Source of the DNA: Nitrosopumilales archaeon
Lineage (GTDB): Archaea; Thermoproteota; Nitrososphaeria; Nitrososphaerales; Nitrosopumilaceae
DNA: 64,000 nt
Direction of reading: 5' to 3'
Assembly (NCBI GenBank): GCA_900299125.1
Contig: OMIR01000044.1
Location: forward strand, 1 to 64,000
Under the pieces are notes generated by a model. The model saw nothing but the letters and a program-made list of their open reading frames with translations, was not told where the DNA came from and did not search any database. The position numbers were made by a program, and so were the translations under genes. This document shows positions 32,777 to 39,485 of the stretch, piece by piece. The stretch's first letter is position 1, and every line of letters starts with the position of its first letter.

Positions 32777-34051
32777 TTAGAGGTTTGGATTGTATCTGAG
32801 AATTGCGGCAGATTTTCCAAGACTAGATAACATTGCACCATATTCAGACAAGCCTGAAATTACTTCTATTTTTGTACCGACTGGAATAGCGATAGTGGAC
32901 AGATAATCAACTATGTCTTGTGATATTCCTACTCGATCCATAGATTTGCATGAATCACAAGGCTTGCTTAACAATTCAGTTTTTTTAGAAATTAGTTTTG
33001 GTTGTTCAATTATCTCTTCAACTATGTTCTTGCATCGATTGCATGTTATTTCCAGTCTATACAGGTTGGTATCGTCAGTAATTAGCAAGATATCGACTAC
33101 ATTGTTTTTTAATAGATTTAGAATATCTTTGAGACCATACACACCTAGACCTGTCCTGTTATTGATTTCGCGAAATAGCCTCTCTACTAATTTTTTTTCT
33201 TCTGCTAATCTAAAATCAGAAAGAACATCCTGTGCTTTCATAAAAGCTTCACGTATTCCTTCAGAGCCAGAATATGATGTATCTAGTGTTGAAATTACCA
33301 TGTTTTGCAGTCTATATTCGAGATAGTTTTCTTTGAGAAAGTCTTCTTTTGTAGGACCTGGACCTGATACAATTAGTCCTTTGATTGGATAGATATCAAT
33401 GAAAAATTCTTTGGTTGTTTCTGCAACTCTATTGTAATAGTATGATAATTCCATCTCTCTGAGCCTTTCAAATCTTCTAGCAGATTGCCCGCCCTGCCTG
33501 TGTTTTCCTGCAACGCCAGAACTAGTTTCTCTGAGTACTTCGATTTTGTCCCCATGCAAAAGTCCCCATCCTGCATCCTTGGTATCAATTGCTAAAAATC
33601 CAATTAGATTATCGTCTTTTAGCATGTCTTTGAGAATATCTACATGAAAATGATCATCGCAGCGATACAATGAAGTGGTAAGATCCTTTGGCGGTTCTAG
33701 CTCCCAGACTTTGATTACCTCACTTCCAATGGGACCTCCGCCTTCTGGTGGAACCGCACCACAAAAAACAACTAAACCACGTTCTGGTGTTTCCTTGTAT
33801 AGCTTTAGTCTTTGCTGCACACGTCCAAGTGCATCCACTACGTGGGTTCTCGTCATTGCGGATTTGATATTATCTGCAGTTCCTTGTTCTTCGCGTAATT
33901 GATTAATGACTAGGTGCAACTGCTTTGCCTTTGGAATGTAAACAGTGATCAATTCAGTACCCCTACCAGAAATTCTAGATAGTTCATCCAAAGTTTTTTT
34001 AATCTTGTAAATTTTTACCGAGTCTTGCTTTTCTATAGTGATTTTTCCCAA
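32777..34051 (-). CDS. prf1: Peptide chain release factor aRF1
   Basis: Recognises all three stop codons and triggers peptide release. In the 424-residue protein, codon-recognition NIKS is at 61-64, the catalytic GGQ at 187-189 (RQGGQSARRF), and domain 3 follows with two Cys pairs CNRC and CDSC near residues 333 and 356, a zinc site kept in some archaeal aRF1. Start is TTG 34051. Confidence 0.96.
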   Translation of the reverse strand: MGKITIEKQDSVKIYKIKKTLDELSRISGRGTELITVYIPKAKQLHLVINQLREEQGTADNIKSAMTRTHVVDALGRVQQRLKLYKETPERGLVVFCGAVPPEGGGPIGSEVIKVWELEPPKDLTTSLYRCDDHFHVDILKDMLKDDNLIGFLAIDTKDAGWGLLHGDKIEVLRETSSGVAGKHRQGGQSARRFERLREMELSYYYNRVAETTKEFFIDIYPIKGLIVSGPGPTKEDFLKENYLEYRLQNMVISTLDTSYSGSEGIREAFMKAQDVLSDFRLAEEKKLVERLFREINNRTGLGVYGLKDILNLLKNNVVDILLITDDTNLYRLEITCNRCKNIVEEIIEQPKLISKKTELLSKPCDSCKSMDRVGISQDIVDYLSTIAIPVGTKIEVISGLSEYGAMLSSLGKSAAILRYNPNL

Positions 34052-34133
34052 CAGGATTCAAGCTTTTTGGATGCCATATTAAGATTCCAACAATTCATGT
34101 GAATCTGAAATTGATGAATATTCTAACGACTAA

Positions 34134-34778
34134 CTACTCGTCTAGAACCTTGCGAAATACATCTAGTGGTTGATTTCCTGTGATTTTCGTAATTTTATCA
34201 CCAGAAATGATCAAAAATGATGGTGTTGCATCAATTTTAATTCCTTGTCCAAATTCATAAGTATTGAGAACCTTTTTTTCGTATTTTTTCGAATCAAGAC
34301 ATCTTTCTAATGCATCAACATCCAGACCTGCAGTCTGACCAAAATTACTCAGGGATGCTCGATTTATCCAGCCAGTCCTCTCCCCATTCCAGTTTTTGTA
34401 AATCTCATCATGCATTGCCCAAAATTTACCCTGATCATTAGCACAGTGGGAAGCTTCTGCTGCAAGAACAGAGTCAGGCCCATTTAATGGAAAATCTAGA
34501 AAAATCAAACTTGCTTTACCACTATCAATGTATTCTTTTTTGATTACATCAAGACTATTTTTGTGAAATTTGTAGCAAAATGTACACTGATAGTCACCAA
34601 ACTCTACTATGGTAATCGGGGCAGAAGAAGTTCCAATGTGAGGGGAACCACGCTCGATAAGATCTCCTAAAGTAAAATCAGTATTTTTTTGAGGTAGTAA
34701 ATTTCCAAAAACAGCAATTACAAAAACCACTGCAATAACTGCTATTGCAGAAGGAATTACAAAAGCTAGTTTTGACAT
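34134..34778 (-). CDS. DsbA-like thiol:disulfide oxidoreductase, membrane anchored
   Basis: A 214-residue extracellular thioredoxin-fold protein. An N-terminal anchor spans residues 3-27; the active site is CTFC (Cys65, Cys68) in EFGDYQCTFCYKFH, followed by the helical insert with GKFWAMHDEIY and the cis-Pro in IDATPSFLI. It should form or shuffle disulfides outside the membrane. ATG 34778 is chosen; the frame is open further but that overlaps the regulator gene. It lies downstream of the DUF4443 regulator on the same strand, 35 bases away. Confidence 0.87.
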   Translation of the reverse strand: MSKLAFVIPSAIAVIAVVFVIAVFGNLLPQKNTDFTLGDLIERGSPHIGTSSAPITIVEFGDYQCTFCYKFHKNSLDVIKKEYIDSGKASLIFLDFPLNGPDSVLAAEASHCANDQGKFWAMHDEIYKNWNGERTGWINRASLSNFGQTAGLDVDALERCLDSKKYEKKVLNTYEFGQGIKIDATPSFLIISGDKITKITGNQPLDVFRKVLDE

Positions 34779-34813
34779 ATTCTTGACTATTTCAAGACGC
34801 AAAAATAGTTTTG

Positions 34814-35452
34814 CTATGCAATAGTTGCAAGTGTCCACAGTGCGGAATTTTTTGCAGCAATTTCTGCCACAAATGGATCGTCTGCAGAAGCAATTATTAT
34901 CAAATCCCCGTTTCTAGGATTGAGATTTTTTAGCAGTAATTTTCTTGTTTTTGTATCGTCTGATAAGCAATCAATACTTTCTTTTGGAAAAACAAACTGA
35001 TTTTCTTTGTATTGTAGTGTGGTAGCCCCACTAGCACCGTAAAGGATGGCATAATCTCGCTGTTCCATTCCTGTTTTTGAGGCAAAAGAATACGTTCGAA
35101 GAATCACCCCGTAATTGAATTTGCTACGTGCAATGTTGCATTTTGGTATAATGCACTCGGAATCAATCACGTCGTGTAATGATTTAGCGAAATTTTTTCC
35201 CTTGATCGTAAGAAATGTTCCGGATTTGGTTGAATCTGCAAACCCTGTTTCTTTTAGATGGGCGATCATTGTCTTGACTGCCCCTTCACCAATGTGAAGT
35301 TGCTCACATAATGTGTTTCTGGAAACATAGGATTCGGTATACAATAATTGAAATGCTTTGAAAACATGAGGAGTTGAAAATGTCAGAACTTTGGAGGAAC
35401 CTTTTCTGGATACAATGTTTTGTAATGTTTGTACTCTTGACCGCATACTCAT
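34814..35452 (-). CDS. DUF4443-type HTH regulator, divergent from cbtBA
   Basis: A 212-residue protein with an N-terminal winged helix (about 25-90: RNTLCEQLHIGEGAVKTMIAHLKETGFADST) and a C-terminal domain of the DUF4443 type. The C-terminal part includes CIIPKCNIARS, two Cys that might bind a metal. It diverges from the cobalt-transporter-like genes across 55 bases that hold a perfect palindrome lying between its TATA box and its own start codon, so autoregulation and control of cbtBA are likely. Ligand not known; cobalt or a cobalamin form is my inference. Confidence 0.78.
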   Translation of the reverse strand: MSMRSRVQTLQNIVSRKGSSKVLTFSTPHVFKAFQLLYTESYVSRNTLCEQLHIGEGAVKTMIAHLKETGFADSTKSGTFLTIKGKNFAKSLHDVIDSECIIPKCNIARSKFNYGVILRTYSFASKTGMEQRDYAILYGASGATTLQYKENQFVFPKESIDCLSDDTKTRKLLLKNLNPRNGDLIIIASADDPFVAEIAAKNSALWTLATIA

Positions 35453-35457
35453 TAAAT

Positions 35458-35476
35458 ATTGGATGGTTCATCCAAT
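35458..35476. promoter_or_regulatory. Operator-like perfect inverted repeat
   Basis: ATTGGATG and CATCCAAT form an eight-base perfect inverted repeat with a three-base spacer, placed between the divergent DUF4443 regulator (ATG 35452) and cbtB (ATG 35508). A dimeric regulator bound here would sit at the regulator's transcription start and just beside the shared TATA element. Confidence 0.6.
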
Positions 35477-35479
35477 GAC

Positions 35480-35486
35480 TTAAATA
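35480..35486. promoter_or_regulatory. TATA element shared by regulator and cbtB
   Basis: TTAAATA at 35480-35486 lies 22-28 bases before the cbtB ATG. Read on the minus strand, TATTTAA is 28-34 bases before the regulator ATG. No other good box is present in the 55-base gap. Confidence 0.55.
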
Positions 35487-35507
35487 CATTGATTCGAGGA
35501 TTTCTGC

Positions 35508-35723
35508 ATGACACAGTCCAAAGAGATTGTAATTTCAAAGTCAAGTGTTCCAAAACTAGCAATACTAATTCTTGCTGCGTTTTCTGCATTTGGGCTATTC
35601 GTTGTGGGCTTTGATCAAGGACAGTTGTTTTCTCCAGTGTTTGGGGAGCAAGCTTTTGATCAGATGTGGCTACACGAACTCACTCATGATATGAGACATG
35701 CAGCTGGCTTTCCATGCCACTAG
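35508..35723 (+). CDS. cbtB: CbtB-type cobalt transporter subunit
   Basis: A 71-residue membrane protein with one span (about 16-35) and the family C-terminus: HELTHDMRHAAGFPCH, giving His56, His60, His64, Cys70 and His71 as metal ligands. CbtB with CbtA is a predicted cobalt uptake system, in bacteria often under a cobalamin riboswitch. Followed by cbtA after 12 bases. Cobalt supply fits the cobalamin adenosyltransferase found 19 kb downstream. Confidence 0.87.
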   Translation: MTQSKEIVISKSSVPKLAILILAAFSAFGLFVVGFDQGQLFSPVFGEQAFDQMWLHELTHDMRHAAGFPCH

Positions 35724-35735
35724 CGTGAATCCTTC

Positions 35736-36461
35736 ATGAAGACGTCTATTTTTATTGCGGCCGTTATACTAGCTGGTGCACTTTCAGGTACAATATACGG
35801 CTTGGCCAATCTAGTCCTTGTTGAACCATACTTGGATACTGCAATTAGTATAGAAAATCAACATTTATTCAATTCTGGCAAAGAGCAGAATACCCCAGAT
35901 TTTTGGGCAAAATATTATTCGTATAGGGCATGGCAAAAAGGAGGAGAGATTATAGCTGGTTCTATTTTTGGCTTGGCCATGGGGTCATTATTTGGTCTAG
36001 TTTTTGGACTGACAAAAAGTTCACTCCCACGCAAAAATCCTATAGCAAAGTCATTGTTTTTGGCAATGATAATGTGGGCAGTTTTGTACATTGTACCTTT
36101 TGCAAAATTCCCTGCAAATCTTCCAGGAATGGAAGGATCTGAAACAATAATTCCAAGACAGACATTGTATCTTACCATGCTGACAATATCCGGACTTGGA
36201 GCAGTAGGATTTTTTGTATTTTATAAAAAAACTGGAAAAAAGTTAGCCTCCATTACAGGATATGCCATATTAGTAATTATGGCATTTTTTATAATTCCAG
36301 CAAATCCTAATTCTCCACAATTAGATTCCCAGTTAATTTTTTTCAGGCTGGCTACAATTACCGGAATGACTATGTTTTGGATATCTTTGGCAATGATTTT
36401 TGGGGCTTTATGGATAAAGCTAAACCTTGATCAGATTTATGAAAAAAAATCAAAAAACTAA
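35736..36461 (+). CDS. cbtA: CbtA-type cobalt transporter subunit
   Basis: A 241-residue protein with about six spans. The family features are an early span with AGALSGTIYGL, the FGLAMGSLFGLVFGL span, and KFPANLPGMEGSETIIPRQTLY between spans, which matches the CbtA KYPANPP...ETI loop. Expected to form the permease with CbtB. Same strand, co-transcribed with cbtB. Confidence 0.85.
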   Translation: MKTSIFIAAVILAGALSGTIYGLANLVLVEPYLDTAISIENQHLFNSGKEQNTPDFWAKYYSYRAWQKGGEIIAGSIFGLAMGSLFGLVFGLTKSSLPRKNPIAKSLFLAMIMWAVLYIVPFAKFPANLPGMEGSETIIPRQTLYLTMLTISGLGAVGFFVFYKKTGKKLASITGYAILVIMAFFIIPANPNSPQLDSQLIFFRLATITGMTMFWISLAMIFGALWIKLNLDQIYEKKSKN

Positions 36462-36475
36462 ATTATTTATTCTCA

Positions 36476-36511
36476 TTCTATATAATTAGAACAATAACAT
36501 TTTATTTAAAG
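36476..36511 (+). promoter_or_regulatory. Promoter region of the tandem HTH pair
   Basis: TTATTTAAAG at 36502-36511 is the TATA box, 24-33 bases before TTG 36535. Upstream, TTCTA and TAGAA (36476-36480 and 36487-36491) form an inverted repeat with a six-base A+T spacer. Confidence 0.45.
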
Positions 36512-36534
36512 ACCGAAAGAGGGAACACAATAAC

Positions 36535-36867
36535 TTGACTAGACGGTTTACTTTACCACAATTAAAAAAATATGATATTACTCAAAAAGTAATTGAGGCA
36601 TTAGCTGATGCGGAATCAAGGACTGTGCTCTTTTCAGTTATTAAAAAAGGTAAAACAGCTGCAGAAATTGCAACAAAGTATAAAATTCCGTTATCATCAG
36701 TTTACAAAAAATTAACAGATCTAGAGAATCTTTCTTTGGTTCATGTAGAGCGCTGGATGATTTCGGATAATGGTAGAAAATTCAAAGTTTATCGCTCTAG
36801 AATTAAAAGAGCAGACATTTCAATTAAAAAACCAGAACCAGTTCTTAGTCTAGCACCTAATCAGTGA
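36535..36867 (+). CDS. Winged-helix transcriptional regulator, tandem copy 1
   Basis: A 110-residue HTH protein: TLPQLKKYDITQKVIEAL leads to a wing-helix core KTAAEIATKYKIPLSSVYKKL, then LVHVERWMISDNGRKFKVYRSRI. It is a clear paralogue of the next gene (same order, similar core). ArsR/MarR-like fold by pattern; no Cys ligand set is visible. Start is TTG 36535. It precedes an FTR1-type iron permease, so metal- or redox-linked control is plausible. Confidence 0.75.
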   Translation: MTRRFTLPQLKKYDITQKVIEALADAESRTVLFSVIKKGKTAAEIATKYKIPLSSVYKKLTDLENLSLVHVERWMISDNGRKFKVYRSRIKRADISIKKPEPVLSLAPNQ

Positions 36868-37202
36868 TTAAAATGCTCGACAAGAAATCCACACAAAATC
36901 TCAGTCATTATGATGTAACTCAGCAAATTATTGAGACACTTGCTAATGTTTATTCCCGTGCCGTTCTTTTTTGTATTATAGACAAGGCAAAAGATGCTCA
37001 AACCATTGCCGATGACCAAAAAATGTCAGTATCTACAGTTTACAAAATTCTCTCTCAACTAGAAAATCTCACATTAATTGAGGTTGATAGATACGAGATA
37101 TCTGACGCTGGAAAAAAAATCAAATATTACAAATCAAGAATCAAAAAGGCAGAAATTATTGTTGGCGGGAATATGCCCATTCTTAATCTCCAATCTAATT
37201 AG
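36864..37202 (+). CDS. Winged-helix transcriptional regulator, tandem copy 2
   Basis: A 112-residue paralogue of the preceding gene: YDVTQQIIETLANVYSRAVLF, then MSVSTVYKILSQLENLTLIEVDRYEISDAGKK. The two overlap as GTGA (start GTG 36864; an ATG at 36873 is possible), so they are translated together and may form a heterodimer. Function inferred from fold only. Confidence 0.75.
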   Translation: MIKMLDKKSTQNLSHYDVTQQIIETLANVYSRAVLFCIIDKAKDAQTIADDQKMSVSTVYKILSQLENLTLIEVDRYEISDAGKKIKYYKSRIKKAEIIVGGNMPILNLQSN

Positions 37203-37206
37203 TGTC

Positions 37207-37242
37207 ATTCTAGAATCATAGAACAGCTTTCTCCTTTAAATA
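37207..37242 (+). promoter_or_regulatory. FTR1 promoter with palindrome
   Basis: TTTAAATA at 37235-37242 is the TATA box, 24-31 bases before GTG 37266. The ten-base palindrome ATTCTAGAAT lies at 37207-37216, about 20 bases above it. Confidence 0.5.
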
Positions 37243-37265
37243 AAGTTAGGCTTACCTATCTAATT

Positions 37266-39485
37266 GTGAGATATTTTTGGGCGGTATTGCTTGGAGTAAT
37301 AGTAATTTTATCGTCTTTACACGCTTCGTACTCTCAAACATATGATTCCAGTCTTGTTGGATCATCTGTAATTGTAACAAAAATTGGTGCATCATTAACC
37401 AAATCAAGCATAGAAAGTGGAGATTTGGAATCAGCGCTAGTTTATTCGAAATTTACTACGGATTATTATTCACAACAGATTGGAGCTTTACGTCCTACTG
37501 AAAACCCGGCCGTAGATCCACTGCATTTACTTTTAATTGATATTCATTCAAAAATTGAGAATGGTTCTTTAGATTCAGTTTCTGCAGATTTAGATTATGT
37601 ATTATCGGAAATAGAAAAATTTCCAAAATCAAATGACAAAAATCTAGTTATTGTAAATATCCTAGGTGTTGCTGATCAAACATATCAAAAAGCATTCACT
37701 GATAATTCATCACAATATTATACAATTTCGTATGATTTGATTAGAGAAGCAGAGTTAATCTCTGAATCAATAGCATCTAATGAAAGACAGGAAAAAGAAA
37801 TTGAAGAGTTTTTCTTTGATTTGAAATCTCTGATTAACAGTAAGGCTGATTTTATTCCGACTAGTAAGTTAATTACTGCAATACAACGAGATTTAACAAA
37901 AACTGATTCTTTGACTAGTGAGAAATCTAATCTCTTTAATTCTATAAAAGACAAATACTCTAAAGCTAATCAAGAACTAAAAAATGGAAATTATCAAAGG
38001 GCTGAAGAACTGGTCATTTCAGCCTATTTGGATAACTTTGAGTATCTAGAAGGAGATATTGAGAAAGTTGACGAAAGTCTTGTTCACAATATGGAATCCA
38101 ATATGAGAGAAAAACTTCGAGACATGGTTCGTGAGAAAAAATCACCTGAAAGTATCAGTGCCTTCATTGAAGATCCAATTCTAAAAGATTTGAATCAGGC
38201 CGAGTCTTTATTTTCCAATCTTAAAGACAACAATATCCAGTTCGCTGATGCAGAAACCATAACACCAAAGCCTCTCAATCCAATTGGCTCTGCTAGTGAG
38301 GAACAAAAGTCTGGCGTTAGAAGCCAAATTGACATTATTCGTGATAAATTGGAAACAATGTTAGAACAATACAAAGAGGGAAACTATGAAGCGGCTTTAA
38401 CAACTGCCAGAATTGCATATTTGGATAGCTACGAACATGTTGAAATCCCACTGCGAAATATCGATCCTGATTTTACTCTGGAAGTAGAATTGCAATTTGC
38501 ACAAATGCGCCAGCTAATCAATGAAAGGGCCGATTTTGATCTCGTTCAAGAGGAAGCAGTCAAAGTAAGGCGTAGCCTAGACGAATCAGAAAGACTAGTA
38601 ACAGGAACTGGTCAACTTGCACCATCAATTGCATTCACATCGTCTTTCGCAGTAATTTTCAGAGAAGGATTAGAATCTGTTTTGATTTTAGGTGCAATTC
38701 TGACATATCTTGAAGCGTCAAGAAATACCAAATACAAAAAATTTGTCTATTATGGCATAGTAATCGCAATTGGAGCAACTGCAATTACATGGATTGCAGC
38801 GTCATACATAATTGAAATTTCTGGTGCAAATCGTGAACTAGTAGAGGCAATAGCTGCATTATCTGCAACTGCGGTTTTATTTTATGTCAGTTTTTGGATA
38901 CTAAATAAAATCGAACACAAGAAGTGGATGGAGTTTGTCAAGGCCAAGGTCTGGCAAGCATCTACTACTGGAGGTGTTGCAGTGTTTGTACTTCTATCCT
39001 TTTTTACAATATATCGAGAGGGATTTGAAACAGTATTATTTTATCAAGCAATGTTTGGATTTGCAAAACACATGGAATCCTATGTTGGCTTGGGATTTGT
39101 TTTGGGAATTGGTGTATTATTAGCAGTGTATTATATCACCAGACAGCTAGGAAAACGATTGCCACTAAAGATTCTCTTTGGTCTAACTATGGGGGTTGGC
39201 GCATATCTTTCTATAGCATTCCTAGGAAACGCAATACGGGAATTACAAACACTAGACTTACTGCCATTTACTAGCATGTTAGGAATTATTCCCAGATTGG
39301 ATATCAATTTGGCAAAAATGACTGGAATTTATCCAACTTTGGAGTCATTAATTGGTCAAGTCATGCTGCTTTCAGTATATCTGGCTGCATCCACATACGT
39401 TCTTGTATTAAGACCGAAACGAGATGAGCAGATATCATCAATGCGCAAGTCAAGAAAAGAGATTGACGAGTTTGAGGCGCATTAG
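37266..39485 (+). CDS. FTR1-family iron permease with large extracellular N-terminal domain
   Basis: A 739-residue protein. A signal peptide (1-23) precedes a mainly helical extracellular region of about 430 residues with two similar repeats (YSKANQELKNGNYQRAEELVISAYLD and EQYKEGNYEAALTTARIAYLD), then a seven-span FTR1 domain with both RExxE iron motifs: REGLE at 466-470 and REGFE at 584-588. FTR1 permeases import ferric or ferrous iron, usually with a redox or periplasmic partner. The N-terminal repeats may capture metal. It has its own promoter and follows two HTH genes. Confidence 0.88.
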   Translation: MRYFWAVLLGVIVILSSLHASYSQTYDSSLVGSSVIVTKIGASLTKSSIESGDLESALVYSKFTTDYYSQQIGALRPTENPAVDPLHLLLIDIHSKIENGSLDSVSADLDYVLSEIEKFPKSNDKNLVIVNILGVADQTYQKAFTDNSSQYYTISYDLIREAELISESIASNERQEKEIEEFFFDLKSLINSKADFIPTSKLITAIQRDLTKTDSLTSEKSNLFNSIKDKYSKANQELKNGNYQRAEELVISAYLDNFEYLEGDIEKVDESLVHNMESNMREKLRDMVREKKSPESISAFIEDPILKDLNQAESLFSNLKDNNIQFADAETITPKPLNPIGSASEEQKSGVRSQIDIIRDKLETMLEQYKEGNYEAALTTARIAYLDSYEHVEIPLRNIDPDFTLEVELQFAQMRQLINERADFDLVQEEAVKVRRSLDESERLVTGTGQLAPSIAFTSSFAVIFREGLESVLILGAILTYLEASRNTKYKKFVYYGIVIAIGATAITWIAASYIIEISGANRELVEAIAALSATAVLFYVSFWILNKIEHKKWMEFVKAKVWQASTTGGVAVFVLLSFFTIYREGFETVLFYQAMFGFAKHMESYVGLGFVLGIGVLLAVYYITRQLGKRLPLKILFGLTMGVGAYLSIAFLGNAIRELQTLDLLPFTSMLGIIPRLDINLAKMTGIYPTLESLIGQVMLLSVYLAASTYVLVLRPKRDEQISSMRKSRKEIDEFEAH

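Follow-up and report, generated by a model that had tools for sequence, protein, structure and literature searches.

The 55 bp that separate a gene for a DUF4443 protein from the divergent cbtBA genes hold a perfect palindrome. Sequence comparisons make it probable that this palindrome is the operator of the adjoining DUF4443 protein, which would repress cbtBA until cobalt or cobalamin is short, and that the same signal serves cobalt and B12 genes across the phylum. The locus lies in a 64,000-nucleotide stretch of DNA from a Nitrosopumilales archaeon, which is called the window here.

Table 1. Positions of the regulator, the candidate operator and the predicted cobalt transporter genes in the window
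Feature	Position	Strand	Basis
DUF4443 regulator, N-terminal winged HTH and C-terminal DUF4443 domain	34814-35452	-	Profile matches, structure model
Divergent intergenic region, 55 bp	35453-35507		Sequence read
Predicted palindromic operator ATTGGATG-GTT-CATCCAAT, consensus WTTGGAYRNNNYRTCCAAW	35458-35476		Direct sequence read and conservation
Right half-site, continuous with the probable BRE (TFB element) that precedes the cbtB TATA	35469-35479	+	Position (putative BRE role)
TTAAATA, the cbtB TATA element, about 25 bp ahead of the ATG (leaderless)	35480-35486	+	Putative promoter role
cbtB, small membrane subunit of predicted cobalt transporter, ending in HELTHDMRHAAGFPCH	35508-35723	+	PF09489
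cbtA, membrane subunit of predicted cobalt transporter	35736-36461	+	PF09490

The locus and its palindrome

The regulator has a winged HTH domain at about residues 17-96, which is PH0730_N/CggR_N-like, and a DUF4443 domain at residues 110-207 (34832-35125). It matched PF14544 (DUF4443) with an E-value of 6e-29 and 100.3 bits, above the Pfam curated cut-off of 27. It may start at position 35452 or at a second, in-frame ATG at 35446, near which conservation in the family begins. On the other side of the intergenic region, CbtB matched PF09489 (E 3e-12; 46.9 bits, cut-off 27) and scored 27.4 with the NCBIfam model, below its cut-off of 64.4. CbtA matched PF09490 (E 5e-48; 164.6 bits, cut-off 30.7). 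Together in tandem, they make up a predicted CbtAB transporter, for which cobalt transport is itself a prediction. Directly past cbtA are two small winged-HTH proteins in tandem (36535-36867 and 36864-37202), which several relatives retain, and then an FTR1-type iron permease (37266-39485). This pair and the permease are possibly another metal-control module. Relatives of the regulator were also looked for in viral contigs, and none were found.

The start codons at 35452 (-) and 35508 (+) leave a gap of exactly 55 bp. The sequence-only reading had placed an 8-bp inverted repeat and a TATA element in this gap, and our read of the sequence confirmed both. The 8-bp arms, 35458-35465 and 35469-35476, are perfect and flank a GTT spacer (35466-35468). 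The position of the TTAAATA element suits a leaderless cbtB transcript, and the TATA-to-cbtB spacing in relatives is the same as in the window. Read on the minus strand, TTAAATA may also serve the regulator in the window's genus.

Taken from the window sequence alone, the palindrome is only suggestive, since perfect inverted repeats (arms at least 8 long, spacer at most 12) turned up in 85 of 5000 dinucleotide shuffles (1.7%) of the 55 bp, and the 64-kb window contains 25 repeats of that class. The strong evidence comes from the comparison across genomes, in which sites were counted by pattern search. Apart from the palindrome, the 1.56-Mb assembly has no exact match to TTGGATRNNNYATCCAA. When 2 mismatches were allowed in a loose pattern, the same genome gave 194 matches, which was too many, and a regulon reading based on them was dropped. 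Two other matches in this genome, to TTGGATNNNNNATCCAA, were dismissed because they are not at promoters; one is at a gene 3' end (L291) and the other about 30 bp beyond a gene end (L292).

Conservation in the Nitrosopumilaceae and coupling to the regulator gene

The family sample consisted of 200 Nitrosopumilaceae genomes, 117 of which have the regulator, and 89 further regulator loci were read. The regulator and cbtB are divergent in most of these 89 loci, with the palindrome beside the cbtB TATA element (e.g., TTGGATAAATCATCCAAGAGCTTAAATAC). A site was called when at least 14/16 positions agreed with the consensus. The site was found in 82/89 cbtB upstream regions of regulator-containing loci, compared to 0.16% in shuffles and to 6/27 cbtB upstream regions in regulator-free genomes (82/89 versus 6/27: Fisher 3e-12, not phylogenetically corrected). 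Some of the seven low scorers are further cbtB matches in loci that do have the site. Across the 82 sites, GGA and the second C of TCC are invariant, and 61 of them end 31-32 bp ahead of the projected cbtB start. At the regulator locus of Nitrosotenuis chungbukensis MY2 (L248, read as L012), the candidate operator is ATTGGACGATTCATCCAAG; a narrower alignment (A2) in the genome-contig search links the window's genus to Nitrosotenuis. The case that the sequence-only reading had named against itself, a palindrome missing from relatives that retain the divergent pair, was looked for and is not what we found, as the pairing with the site holds from 81% down to 35-40% regulator identity. Together, these counts and the spacing describe what marks an operator/repressor pair, which is an inverted repeat conserved at the core promoter and coupled to a regulator gene.

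The two halves of the site behave differently when the regulator is absent. In regulator-free genomes, the left half (TTGGAY) is retained in 6/27 regions, whereas the right half (ATCCAAGAGC), which runs into the BRE, is retained in 14/27. This is as expected if the left half serves the regulator only. Part of the contrast between genomes with and without the regulator may reflect which cbtB paralogue was retained. Among genomes with the regulator, six unlinked second copies of cbtBA have the site, one of them with a 16/16 match (L182), suggesting that the signal can act in trans. Four second copies in such genomes are without it (L184, L185, L189, and L191).

Loci in which an insert of about 0.5-1 kb lies between the regulator and cbtB separate control of the two genes. 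The site is on the cbtB side in 17/17 testable loci (14-15/16 positions), whereas the regulator side scores 10-14/16, i.e., it has decayed. Since the site is kept at cbtB and decayed at the regulator, control of cbtB appears to be under selection and autoregulation to be optional. The self-repression that the sequence-only reading had also proposed is, thus, plausible in the window but not conserved. In Nitrosarchaeum-like loci, the insert between the two genes holds an ORF of about 250-265 aa (L038:2028-2822; also L025, L037, L041, and L049), and the palindrome is again found next to cbtB.

Several genomes depart from the usual arrangement. In G108, where no cbtA was detected, the gene opposite the regulator and a perfect site encodes a NicO-family nickel/cobalt permease (L088). 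In G114, a ZnuA-type binding protein is encoded opposite the regulator, with a degenerate site before it (L077); the cbtBA genes, elsewhere in the genome, have their own site (L193). One genus has the regulator facing a lone cbtB, with cbtA elsewhere in the genome or not found (L082, L085, L087, and L091). Five Nitrosopumilaceae genomes without a DUF4443 gene still have the site at cbtB (L161, L162, L163, L172, which is degenerate, and L176), and in several of them the regulator gene is cleanly absent between cbtB and a dsbA-like gene. Recent loss of the regulator or a second binding protein would explain these sites. A site on contig 11 of G069 was dismissed because it falls at an ORF 3' end (L192).

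The signal across Thermoproteota and the DUF4443 family

To cover the phylum, exact TTGGATRNNNYATCCAA matches were collected in 300 Thermoproteota genomes, with the reversed pattern as the control. Outside the family, 48 exact sites were found, compared to 12 for the control. Of 40 inspected sites, 31 precede cobalt or corrinoid genes, a count that includes six sites from three closely related species (G263, G306, and G432). The remaining 9/40 are coding or unclear and were left out of the regulon count. The target genes are cbtB (in two further families), NiCoT, cbiM, cbiB with divergent cobN, a chelatase-type AAA gene, CobD, and BtuF-like and ECF-S-like genes. CbiM, CbiB, and the threonine-phosphate decarboxylase CobD scored above NCBIfam cut-offs, while the BtuF and ECF-S substrate assignments are putative, with some below cut-off or without a Pfam match. 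The sequence-only reading had offered a response to cobalt or cobalamin, and these target genes support it. That reading looks right but too narrow, as the signal appears to be a phylum-wide cobalamin/cobalt signal, of which only the cobalt-uptake part is left in the organism of the window.

The pairing of regulator and site recurs in further lineages, with BtuF-like (L147/L207), chelatase-type (L236), and ECF-S-like (L212/L213) genes. Outside the family, a DUF4443 gene is present in 203/256 genomes, and site and gene occur together in 25/27. Because DUF4443 is so common, this co-occurrence is weak evidence alone. G418 and G448 have sites at B12 genes and no detected DUF4443 gene. Two other arrangements were noted. 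In G005 (L234:1474-1780), a perfect palindrome is 35 bp ahead of a CsoR/RcnR-type metal repressor gene (PF02583) and directly past a membrane protein with an HMSAPDHW motif. In G242, three exact palindromes stand in tandem inside 83 bp (L228:1510-1592), with no clear target gene.

The AlphaFold2 model of the regulator has a pLDDT of 93.7. The sole full-length match of the regulator is 2p8t, PH0730 of Pyrococcus horikoshii (profile E 1.7e-28), and Foldseek aligned the model to it with an E-value of 2.6e-11 and TM scores of 0.68/0.77. The HTH domain resembles that of CggR, and similarity to MntR is weak. In the C-terminal DUF4443 part, G128, R132, D133, G139, and D183 are invariant. A tree of 39 DUF4443 proteins gave two groups with 99/99 support. 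Members of the clade with the window's regulator adjoin cobalt or corrinoid genes: BtuF-like and cobZ-like (L147), cobS and CobY-like (L294), ECF-S and DUF4430 (L155), and a chelatase-type AAA gene (L236). The other group adjoins a GPN-type GTPase and other genes, including an ABC ATPase gene in one lineage; in three of its loci (L293:1794-2414, L295:1362-2000, and L296:1454-2077), the DUF4443 gene adjoins small conserved genes together with one for a GPN-type GTPase. This second group probably has a function other than cobalamin regulation. Since the tree splits the family and the other group has different neighbors, the operator and regulon are claimed for one DUF4443 clade.

Proposed mechanism, alternatives, and known systems

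The position of the site relative to the promoter bears on how it works. Depending on the lineage, it is found on one or the other side of TATA: 3-6 bp upstream, where it overlies the BRE (cbtB, NiCoT, and some BtuF-like genes), or directly downstream, where it overlies the expected transcription start (cbiM, ECF-S-like, and other BtuF-like genes). On either side of TATA, the site always touches the core promoter, which suggests repression by occlusion. This position favors the repression of cbtBA that the sequence-only reading had inferred. In the proposed mechanism, a regulator dimer would use its winged HTH domains to bind both TTGGAY half-sites and would cover the BRE/TATA of cbtB, so that TBP and TFB could not assemble. 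On shortage of cobalt or cobalamin, the regulator would release the DNA and cbtBA would be expressed. The effector would more likely be a cobalamin than free cobalt. This logic would resemble bacterial B12 feedback on cobalt and corrinoid uptake, with a one-component protein repressor in place of a riboswitch. A single site would make up the regulon of the window's organism, and in other Thermoproteota the signal would also act before corrinoid uptake and cobalamin synthesis genes.

A wider proposal can be made tentatively, at slightly less than even confidence. One DUF4443 clade could be the cobalamin-sensing repressor of archaea, a protein equivalent of the B12 riboswitch of bacteria, and its corrinoid-binding domain would differ from the B12-binding folds known so far. 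From a single 17-bp signal, it could control cobalamin synthesis and the uptake of corrinoids and cobalt across Thermoproteota, and cobalt uptake alone in most ammonia-oxidizing archaea.

Sensing of cobalt (or nickel/cobalt) ions instead of a corrinoid would fit the Nitrosopumilaceae, in which the targets are all metal permeases (cbtBA and one NicO permease, plus the ZnuA-type protein beside the regulator in G114). We consider it somewhat unlikely, and favor a corrinoid effector, because the same site elsewhere precedes corrinoid uptake and synthesis genes and because, in the family alignment, DUF4443 has no conserved Cys and no His cluster, the one near-invariant His being in the HTH domain. 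The direction of control could also be the reverse. Archaeal Ptr2-type activators work from directly upstream of the BRE, and the site is in that position, which is open to activators, in the window, in other ammonia-oxidizing archaea, and at NiCoT promoters. Activation of cbtBA by the DUF4443 protein in this manner is unlikely, since it is hard to reconcile with the cbiM, ECF-S-like, and several BtuF-like sites, which are downstream of TATA over the expected start.

Another possible explanation is that the palindrome is bound by a different transcription factor, with the DUF4443 gene as a mere neighbor. The five family genomes and two others with a site and no DUF4443 gene point in this direction, as do the many DUF4443 genes that are not beside a site. 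We find this quite unlikely in view of the divergent pairing, which is retained with the site even between distant regulators, of the loss of the left half in most regulator-free genomes, and of the recurrence of the pairing in further lineages. A chance repeat, an extended core-promoter element, or an RNA hairpin, each acting without a dedicated regulator, is very improbable. A few shuffles of the 55 bp do give repeats as good, and the right half does resemble a BRE and is often retained without the regulator. However, both arms are present at fixed spacing in nearly all of the regulator-containing regions, far above the shuffles, and these conservation data refute the chance reading. A hairpin is opposed by the position of the cbtB site; since the site is upstream of TATA, the palindrome is absent from the cbtB transcript. 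An Rfam search of the window at 33500-37500 and of 18 regulon loci found no cobalamin riboswitch, and the palindrome itself gave no Rfam match.

Repression by the DUF4443 protein can be compared with several known systems. By sequence and fold, the regulator is the same two-domain protein as the PH0730-like/DUF4443 family (PDB 2p8t; PF14544 and PF22167). A solved structure of the Pyrococcus relative, PH0730, has been available since 2007. In the sources searched, this family has no assigned function, operator, or ligand, and it appears in a Pyrococcus transcription-factor survey as a family label only (PMC6316755); here, an operator and a regulon are proposed for one clade. The CggR DNA-binding domain (PDB 7oyk and 8r3g) is among the closest with a solved DNA complex, and its similarity makes a similar mode of winged HTH binding to the operator likely. 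CggR is a bacterial sugar-phosphate regulator, and its effector domain is unrelated to that of the regulator. NikR, DtxR/MntR, and CsoR/RcnR likewise control metal uptake or efflux from promoter operators, but none of their models scored over its curated cut-off with the regulator, which has no conserved Cys/His metal site. Bacterial B12 riboswitch regulons include cbtAB, btuFCD, cbiMNQO, and cob genes. These are nearly the same genes as those of the proposed regulon, and we infer the same feedback logic, which would be exerted in our case by a protein and a DNA palindrome instead of an RNA.

Rodionov and colleagues reportedly proposed, in J Biol Chem in 2003, a CBL-box in some archaea, which is said to be the signal of a hypothetical B12 regulator before cobalamin genes. 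The palindrome described here resembles the reported CBL-box in that it also precedes cobalamin and cobalt genes (31 of the 40 inspected exact sites outside the family). The difference is that the CBL-box regulator was hypothetical and the DUF4443 protein is proposed here. If the two signals are the same, the motif is not new and the regulator assignment is. A literature search found no paper on DUF4443, on the CBL-box, or on CblR with archaea and B12. Pairs of a repressor and its operator are familiar as such, and, as far as searched, what is new is that an operator and a cobalt/B12 regulon are assigned to DUF4443.

Judged from the genomes compared, the regulator very likely acts as a cobalt/B12 repressor, which would give the domain of unknown function DUF4443 a proposed function. 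Ammonia-oxidizing archaea are held to be major producers of B12 in the ocean and need cobalt. For the control of B12 and cobalt supply in archaea, the outcome is a named protein, an exact candidate operator, and a list of genes, and the signal can be used to find B12 and cobalt genes in unannotated archaeal genomes.
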